Below are positions 19,167 through 21,062 of a stretch of DNA of 64,000 bases, one piece after another (within the stretch, counting starts at the first letter, position 1; every line of letters begins with the position of its first letter). Position numbers and translations under genes: made by a program. Source of the stretch: an uncultured SAR86 cluster bacterium (GTDB taxonomy: Bacteria; Pseudomonadota; Gammaproteobacteria; Magnimaribacterales; D2472). Below the pieces are notes generated by a model. The model did no database searches. It was not told the DNA's origin and saw only the letters and a list, made by a program, of their open reading frames with translations. The stretch is taken from assembly GCA_943789005.1 (NCBI GenBank), contig CALSSL010000002.1, positions 252,532 through 316,531 on the forward strand. The letters are read 5' to 3'.

Positions 19167-20264
19167 ATGGAAAAAAAGAGATTCTTTGATGATAGGTTGA
19201 AATACCTATCTTTTATTCAAAATACAAGTGAAAAGAGAGCTATTTCTGAGCAACTTGCGCCGCATATTGCCTCAATGCCAAAAAATAGAACTTTCCTAAG
19301 AATACTTGATGCTGGAACTGGAGATGGCACTGTAAAGTCTAATGTGATTAAAACCTTTCATAAATATCATCCATATACTTCATTACTAATTACTGGGAAA
19401 GAAATTAGCTATGAAGATCTCAAAAATACTCTAGAAAAAATGCCGGATAGGTTTGTTGAACATCCCAACCTACTGGTCACTATGACAAATGTAAAATTTG
19501 CTGAACTTGGTCATATAGAAAGTAGTAATAAGATTAAAGGTAAAAACGTTAAATCTTATACATTAGTATTAAAAGAAGATAATTCTTTTGACTTCAATGC
19601 TCAGATGAATAAGTTAAATAGCTTTATAAAAAAATATTGGGGTATTGAGATAGATAATAAATCAAGAACATCTTATGCAAACCCCTGCATCATTAGGATT
19701 TATAGAGAGGATCATAAAAGGTACATAGAACCTTTTATTGATAACGATTACAAGAATAATAATTACGACTTAATTATTGCATCGCAAGCTTATAGAGCCG
19801 CTTCAGAAGTAAGAACAAAAGTTAATAATGTAATTGCCCCTTTAATGAGGCTTCTTAATAAATCTGGAAAATTACTTATTACTCATTCATGCGGAGGTGA
19901 TACTGTAGAAAAGATTTTGAAAATAGCATGGAAAGATAAGCAGCCCTTCCCAAATAAGGCTAAAGATATTATTGAGTTCTTAAAAAGTAATCCAGTTGGC
20001 GAAAACAATAAATATTCTTACTCAAAACCCAAGTCTTACACTTTTAATTTCAAAAGAAGCCCAGATCAAACTGTTTCTGAACTTTTTGGTCATGGAGTTG
20101 ATGCAAAATGGGCGAATATTTTATATATAGGTCAAATACCCGATAAAGATATACAAGGGATTGAGAAATCAAATGTTGCTTATAAAAAAGTTCGGACTGC
20201 TATTAATAAAGAAGATAAAATGTTCTTTAAGAATGAAATATTTAGTATCAGAAAAATAAGATAA
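19167..20264 (+). CDS. Class I SAM-dependent methyltransferase-like protein, function unknown
   Basis: 365 residues. The SAM-binding loop is clear: RILDAGTGDGTV at about 45-56. A later NNYDLIIASQAYRAAS and GKLLITHSCGGDTVE fit the strand 4/strand 5 region of a Rossmann methyltransferase. Between them lies a long Lys-rich insert (about 85-190) that I do not recognise. A strong AAGGGG ribosome site precedes the ATG. Two bases after its stop comes a P-loop kinase, then an overlapping nucleotidyltransferase, so the three are one unit. The substrate is unknown; the partners suggest a phosphorylated or nucleotide-activated small molecule. Confidence 0.7.
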   Translation: MEKKRFFDDRLKYLSFIQNTSEKRAISEQLAPHIASMPKNRTFLRILDAGTGDGTVKSNVIKTFHKYHPYTSLLITGKEISYEDLKNTLEKMPDRFVEHPNLLVTMTNVKFAELGHIESSNKIKGKNVKSYTLVLKEDNSFDFNAQMNKLNSFIKKYWGIEIDNKSRTSYANPCIIRIYREDHKRYIEPFIDNDYKNNNYDLIIASQAYRAASEVRTKVNNVIAPLMRLLNKSGKLLITHSCGGDTVEKILKIAWKDKQPFPNKAKDIIEFLKSNPVGENNKYSYSKPKSYTFNFKRSPDQTVSELFGHGVDAKWANILYIGQIPDKDIQGIEKSNVAYKKVRTAINKEDKMFFKNEIFSIRKIR

Positions 20265-20266
20265 TA

Positions 20267-20677
20267 ATGAAAATTTTAATTATGGGTCTTCCTGGAAGTG
20301 GAAAAACTTATCTAGCAGAAAGATTGCAACCGCTTATTAACGCAGCTTGGTACAACGCTGATGTAGTAAGAAAAATGGCCAATGATTGGGATTTTTCTTC
20401 TGAAGGAAGAATTAGACAAAGTATGCGAATGAAAACTTTTGCTGATTTTGAAAAAAGTAATAACAGATATGTAATATGTGATTTTGTATGTCCAACTAGA
20501 ACAACTCAAGAAAATTTTGATCCTGATATCACTATATGGATGAATACAATAAAAGAAGGTCGGTTTGAAGACACAAATAAAATGTTTGAAGAGCCATTAA
20601 ATGTCGATTTTCTAATTACAGAAATGAATGACAATAATCATCATGATATTGCTAAGGAAATTTTAAAAAATGTTTGA
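20267..20677 (+). CDS. Small P-loop kinase related to adenylylsulfate kinase
   Basis: 136 residues. Walker A is at the very start (GLPGSGKT), followed by NAAWYNADVVR (a substrate-binding Asp-x-x-Arg as in APS kinase), RIRQSMRMKTFAD and CDFVCPT. The last part (WMNTIKEGRFEDTNKMF) is shared with APS-kinase-like proteins common in marine phages and bacteria. It is shorter than CysC and is not next to any sulfate-assimilation gene, so phosphorylation of a substrate other than APS is likely. Overlaps the next gene by eight bases. Confidence 0.75.
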   Translation: MKILIMGLPGSGKTYLAERLQPLINAAWYNADVVRKMANDWDFSSEGRIRQSMRMKTFADFEKSNNRYVICDFVCPTRTTQENFDPDITIWMNTIKEGRFEDTNKMFEEPLNVDFLITEMNDNNHHDIAKEILKNV

Positions 20678-21062
20678 TTGGAAAAAACCAACCGTTCAAA
20701 TGCTAGGAAGATGGCAGCCATGGCATGATGGCCATCAAGAACTCTTTAAGAGATGTATTGCTAAAACTGGACAAGTAATTATTCAAGTAAGAGATGTACA
20801 AGGAGCCTCTGGCGGAGACGGTCAAGAAGATAATCCTTTTAACTGGGAATCAGTTTGTGAAAATATTGAAAATGGATTAAAAAAAGATGGCTACAAGAGA
20901 GGTTTAGAATATGAAATCATGCTTGTTCCAAATATAACCAACATCACCTATGGTCGAGGTGTTGGCTATGTCTTTGAAGAAGAGGTATTTGATAAATCTA
21001 TAACTGATATAAGCGCCACTAAAATAAGACAAAAATTAAGAGAAGATGGAGTTTTAGATTAA
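20670..21062 (+). CDS. Cytidylyltransferase-like nucleotidyltransferase
   Basis: 130 residues of the HxGH nucleotidyltransferase superfamily. The catalytic motif is HDGH in GRWQPWHDGHQELF and the second signature ISATKIRQKL (ISxTxxR) is near the C-terminus; YGRGVGY lies between. It should join a nucleotide monophosphate to a phosphorylated substrate, as NMN adenylyltransferase or glycerol-3-phosphate cytidylyltransferase do. Coupled by an 8-base overlap to the kinase, it would activate that enzyme's product. Its 3' end overlaps the convergent arsC by nine bases. Confidence 0.8.
   Translation: MFDWKKPTVQMLGRWQPWHDGHQELFKRCIAKTGQVIIQVRDVQGASGGDGQEDNPFNWESVCENIENGLKKDGYKRGLEYEIMLVPNITNITYGRGVGYVFEEEVFDKSITDISATKIRQKLREDGVLD

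Follow-up and report, generated by a model that had tools for sequence, protein, structure and literature searches.

Three genes lie together on the + strand of the window, the whole 64,000-nucleotide stretch of DNA analyzed here, which comes from a 1.27-Mb SAR86 genome: MT (19167..20264), coding for a putative 365-aa class I SAM-dependent methyltransferase; KIN (20267..20677), coding for a 136-aa P-loop kinase resembling APS kinases; and NT (20670..21062), coding for a 130-aa minimal NMNAT-like nucleotidyltransferase that we propose to be an ATP sulfurylase. A 2-base gap separates the first two genes and an 8-base overlap joins the second and third, exactly as an earlier note on this DNA had described, and the motifs listed there are all found in the translations. 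These are the SAM-binding loop LDAGTGDG of MT (19305..19328, +), conserved in the MT family; the near-invariant Walker A GLPGSGKT of KIN (20285..20308, +); and, in NT, the HxGH nucleotidyltransferase motif HDGH (20724..20735, +; H19, G21, and H22 invariant) and ISATKIR (21009..21029, +; S, A, T, and R invariant). NT also has a YGRGVGY motif (20949..20969, +), of which G, R, V, and G are invariant. The order MT-KIN-NT is kept in many SAR86 genomes, with homologues at 78-97% identity, and the three reading frames and their order are far beyond chance.

A methyltransferase that shares the locus

The AF2 model of MT (mean pLDDT 86) has a Rossmann-like fold which, together with the glycine-rich loop LDAGTGDG, identifies MT as a class I methyltransferase, apparently of a small-molecule type. 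The nearest Foldseek match of the model is histamine N-methyltransferase (2e-11), with other small-molecule enzymes also near, and no Pfam family scores above its cut-off. The long insert that the earlier note could not place is present (approximately residues 109-200); it is, however, conserved in MT relatives and mostly confidently modeled. A distant homologue (G179, L221 8080-9459) is extended at the N-terminus by about 85 residues that the SAR86 MT lacks.

In many genomes of SAR86 family f1, MT-KIN-NT occupies one locus, with a GcvT-like gene on one side and a saccharopine-dehydrogenase-like gene on the other. This identical order and tight spacing across many f1 genomes would fit a single pathway that takes a small molecule through KIN, NT, and MT in turn, and the earlier note had treated the three genes as one unit. 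However, MT occurs at about 10 other SAR86 loci without KIN-NT, and lone distant homologues are found in larger gammaproteobacterial genomes; KIN-NT occurs without MT in many SAR86 genomes and, in most lineages, stands alone or with other partners; and a search of viral contigs found no MT homologues. We consider a three-enzyme pathway very improbable: MT is a separable local neighbor of KIN-NT, a separate enzyme sharing its locus.

A fixed kinase-nucleotidyltransferase pair, common in phages

KIN and NT, by contrast with the three-gene cassette, are a real unit of the locus. In a partly redundant sample of 239 viral loci collected from IMG/VR in three scans, both genes are present on the same strand, KIN first, in 230, and in 79 of those 230 they are fused in one open frame. 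The two proteins match consecutive halves of one PHROG, 10255, and the pair is present in five cultured phages; in myovirus-like contigs it often has a UvsX-like recombinase gene on one side and a gp41-like helicase gene on the other (neighbors that we identified by eye from sequence). The earlier note was right that these kinase and nucleotidyltransferase types are frequent in marine phages, where the pair is abundant, and the regular separation of the two genes, which it had named beforehand as speaking against its proposal, was not found across the 239 viral loci. Its suggestion of an undescribed system holds for the pair, of which a limited search of the open-access literature found no description, but not for the cassette of three.

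Among approximately 400 sampled Pseudomonadota genomes, KIN-NT was found only in the genome of the window and in G692, and relatives of G692 supplied a few more pairs; a kinase match in G633 was rejected as a KIN, being a canonical APS kinase. Since few bacteria carry the pair and phages commonly do, SAR86 may have acquired KIN-NT from phages.

Several variants of the arrangement were also seen. Two phage loci (L063 3394-4932 and L069 5995-8586) carry KIN with no NT on the contig and a SAM synthetase gene after KIN, to which L069 adds Apt-like and MTA/SAH-nucleosidase-like genes; a link of KIN to SAM, considered on account of this gene row, was set aside, as nothing else backs it. In L071 (5579-6001), and also in L072, an intact KIN-NT pair is immediately preceded by a second, degenerate NT paralogue, with HxGH changed to N.GH and ISATxxR absent. 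In L584 (6209-6604), and likewise in L583, a phage NT without KIN stands beside a DUF2061 gene and has lost R and ISAT from its motifs. In G692 (L390 5380-9170), the fused KIN-NT is followed by an AMP-ligase-like gene, and an MfnB-like gene and an aldehyde dehydrogenase gene lie nearby on the opposite strand.

KIN scores 25.4 bits against APS_kinase (PF01583), above the curated cut-off of 21.1, and its best PDB profile matches are APS kinases (2yvu, 9e-10), whereas its match to NadR is weak (1e-3). The Walker A, DxxR, and FSxxxR...R with FVxP motifs are conserved, with NADxxR where APS kinase has DGDxxR. The predicted structure of a fused KIN-NT homologue folds like APS kinase, kinases filling the Foldseek matches listed for it. 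The APS-kinase lid with the RDPKGLY motif (about 19 residues) is missing from every aligned KIN member, and the APS-kinase stretch around LGFSxxDRIEQARRM is nearly intact in L300, L390, L397, and L398. Judged by profiles and the model, KIN is a lidless relative of APS kinase, and we infer that it phosphorylates APS at the 3' position.

NT matches NMN adenylyltransferases (1f9a, 5e-10; 2qjt, 2e-9), sharing their GRxQPxHxGH...NPF...ISxTxxR core, and is nearest in sequence to the archaeal and NadM-type enzymes. The significant match covers the N-terminal half and ends at about residue 83, short of full length, and at 130 residues compared with 168, NT is about 35 shorter; the second half of NMN adenylyltransferase is where NMN binds. 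A PDB match of NT to Crov588 was discarded as spurious, that protein being a leucine-rich-repeat protein (PMC9525666).

HxGH, VRD, YGRxVGY, and ISATxxR are invariant across the NT family. Canonical ATP sulfurylase (Sat) has the motifs HxxH, GRDHAG, and ISGTxxR, and NT has HxGH and ISATxxR, with its invariant YGR(G/D)VGY at the position of GRDHAG by motif order only. Structures of Sat from yeast and Penicillium assign sulfate binding to QxRNP and GRDHAG; we treat the motif equivalence as a lead rather than a test. NT has no Pfam or NCBIfam match to Sat (PF01747), and a profile comparison with one Sat was not significant (probability 10%). With no sequence-profile relationship between them, NT may be said to work like a Sat, not to be one.

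Sulfotransferases, DUF2061, and cysteine genes near the pair

In six of the eight SAR86 f2 genomes (G040, G046, G049, G052, G055, and G058), a sulfotransferase gene lies directly upstream of KIN-NT in an operon, and the two products that we checked against Pfam are Sulfotransfer_3 proteins (6e-39 and 1e-45). G037 keeps sulfotransferase-KIN with no adjacent NT, and in G043, which has a complete KIN-NT at another place, the sulfotransferase gene adjoins what is left of a KIN. Among f4 genomes, the pair is found in G051 alone, where KIN, NT, DUF2061, and a CysQ-like (inositol-phosphatase-family) gene stand in a row, adjoined by a gene for a Sulfotransfer_1 protein; in G029 (f1), a Sulfotransfer_1 match below the curated cut-off lies downstream of KIN-NT. 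The alphaproteobacterium-like G772 has the order SUMT-CysI-CysH-DUF2061-KIN-NT, and in G746 an NT homologue is found together with a canonical APS kinase and two fragments of sulfotransferases; relatives of this G746-type NT were sought in viruses and none was found.

Phage sulfotransferase genes lie near KIN-NT in L266, L272, L279/L280/L282, L286, and L078, and in phage Suzuki a partial Sulfotransfer_4 match lies two genes upstream of the fused pair. Between the two in Suzuki, directly upstream of the fusion, is a NADAR-domain gene (L542 14708-15881). Most phage copies of KIN-NT have no sulfotransferase within the flank examined, and no CysH, CysI, or SUMT turned up around the viral copies.

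These neighbors bear on a reading that we initially favored, in which the pair resembles NadR: KIN would phosphorylate nicotinamide riboside and NT would adenylate NMN to NAD+, for phage use against NAD-depleting defense. NadR likewise combines a P-loop kinase with an NMNAT-like domain carrying GRxQPxHxGH, NPF, and ISxTxxR motifs; NMN adenylyltransferases are the closest relatives of NT; the NADAR gene of Suzuki would also fit; and jumbo phages encode NadR-type proteins that join a P-loop kinase to a HIGH-family NTase (PMC7824862). However, KIN is far closer to APS kinases than to NadR and precedes NT, whereas the NadR kinase domain follows its NMNAT domain; the similarity of NT to NMNAT is confined to the N-terminal half of a protein that is shortened in its C-terminal half; and the neighbors are sulfotransferase, CysH/CysI, CysQ-like, and DUF2061 genes, with no NAD-related neighbors of KIN-NT in cells. 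We dropped NAD salvage on gene context and the affinity of the kinase to APS kinases, and regard it as quite improbable.

Of the 239 viral KIN-NT loci, 30 also encode DUF2061 (PF09834), a small membrane protein, whose gene commonly lies next to KIN and NT or between them. As a control we used 80 ThyX-centered viral loci, two of which carry KIN/NT. DUF2061 is absent from all 78 ThyX loci without KIN/NT (Fisher 2e-4 against 30/239), as is sulfotransferase, for which the difference from KIN-NT loci (8/239) is not significant (Fisher 0.21). In the reverse direction, KIN/NT is present in 14 of 30 phage sulfotransferase loci (7e-8) and in 11 of 15 phage DUF2061 loci (1e-9), each compared with 2/80 ThyX loci, although these p values are optimistic because the queries were taken from KIN-NT loci and the loci are non-independent. 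DUF2061 also lies between a sulfotransferase gene and cysD-cysN on nod plasmids of Mesorhizobium (rhizobial), an order that provides a separate, independent tie between DUF2061 and the activation of sulfate for sulfation; the other copies on plasmids have no neighbors of the sulfotransferase or cysD-cysN type. Recurring beside sulfate-activation genes on nod plasmids, in bacteria, and in phages (L507 4980-5213, L510 4971-5204, L399 7857-8126, and L421 6986-7210), DUF2061 looks like a partner of sulfate activation.

KIN and Sulfotransfer_3 also co-occur across 61 genomes: 38 have both, 16 have neither, 3 have KIN alone, and 4 the sulfotransferase alone (Fisher 2e-8). The counts are clade-structured, since both are missing from every f3 genome and from nearly every f4 genome. 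Several of the exceptions can probably be explained: in G005 and G014 the contig breaks off within MT, G004 and G020 are fragmented, and the sulfotransferase of G051 is of a different family.

A candidate miniature PAPS synthetase

The genome of the window codes for two strong sulfotransferases (G000:C2:4474-5049 and 214022-214753), both outside the window. Sat (PF01747) gave no match in the 15 SAR86 genomes searched, which carry KIN-NT or its locus, no CysD/CysH (PF01507) match was found in the window's genome, and a KIN query across the latter returned only KIN itself. PF01507 gave only weak matches in other SAR86 genomes; one of them, L401, was rejected as a CysD, since it reads as a TilS-like tRNA lysidine synthetase, and others are reading frames of about 520 aa, the length of GMP synthase. 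With sulfotransferases present and no Sat, CysD/CysH, or second KIN found, KIN-NT is the only candidate source of PAPS found in the window's genome, which is estimated to be 91% complete, so that the absence of the other enzymes is suggestive, not absolute.

We propose that KIN and NT together form a miniature PAPS synthetase, and put the probability of this at roughly three in four; homology, pairing, fusion, co-occurrence, and context are observed, and the substrates, products, and physiological use are inferred. NT, as a 130-residue NMNAT-like HxGH core, would transfer AMP from ATP onto sulfate, giving APS and PPi; KIN would convert APS to PAPS by phosphorylating the 3'-OH; sulfotransferases, whose genes lie at other places in the SAR86 genome, would use PAPS for sulfating acceptors; and CysQ-type phosphatases would recycle PAP. 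Phages carry the same pair, sometimes with a sulfotransferase of their own or the DUF2061 membrane protein. Sulfate adenylation followed by phosphorylation to PAPS is better supported than the scheme of the earlier note, in which a small molecule is phosphorylated, joined to a nucleotide, and methylated. Counting against the PAPS reading are the resemblance of NT in sequence to NMN adenylyltransferase and not to Sat, in KIN, the loss of the lid and the replacement of DGDxxR, the many phage copies with no sulfotransferase in the examined flank, the non-significant forward enrichment of sulfotransferases, and the canonical Sat of G772.

A different division of labor would keep KIN as a genuine APS kinase, with NT producing a different sulfated or sugar nucleotide, or acting as a regulator of KIN, and an undetected enzyme activating sulfate. 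G772 carries a canonical Sat, so that KIN-NT is not its sole source of APS, and the two phages with KIN and no NT on the contig would also suit this arrangement. The lack of Sat matches in the 15 SAR86 genomes and of CysD/CysH in the window's genome argues against it, as do the retention of HxGH and ISxTxxR in NT and the position of the G746 NT beside a canonical APS kinase, an enzyme that must act on APS; we think it rather unlikely. On balance, we favor the view that NT, at only about 120-137 residues, arose independently from an NMNAT-like core as one more class of ATP sulfurylase; with a lidless APS kinase it would make up an exceptionally small PAPS synthetase, widespread in marine phages and fixed in SAR86, where it would be the sole sulfate-activating enzyme.

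Several known systems are similar in part. Animal PAPS synthetase (PAPSS; APS kinase plus ATP sulfurylase) also places an APS-kinase homologue first and an HxGH-superfamily nucleotidyltransferase second, the order of the fused phage proteins, and PAPSS shares sulfotransferases as genomic company; however, KIN-NT has about 260 residues compared with about 620, its kinase is lidless, and NT is NMNAT-like with no Sat domain. KIN-NT occupies the same kind of operon slot, by DUF2061 and sulfotransferase genes, as CysD-CysN(C) and NodP-NodQ, although their adenylyltransferase is non-homologous, CysD being a PP-loop enzyme dependent on the GTPase CysN. PHROG 10255 is exactly this fused family in phages, but its annotation stops at 'kinase'. 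Viral 'cysC' auxiliary-gene calls have been listed as not validated (PMC12713726; see also PMC9611531), and some of them may belong to the KIN-NT family.

If the proposal is correct, some viral 'cysC' and 'nadM' auxiliary calls, usually read as sulfate assimilation or NAD synthesis, may be genes for PAPS supply and sulfation; a very common marine phage gene pair would gain a function, and DUF2061 would probably act as a membrane partner in activating sulfate. KIN-NT would be an unrecognized miniature replacement for the standard enzymes that make PAPS, the sulfate-group donor, and would explain how the sulfotransferases of SAR86, an abundant surface-ocean lineage with no known activating enzyme detected in the genomes tested, are supplied with it.
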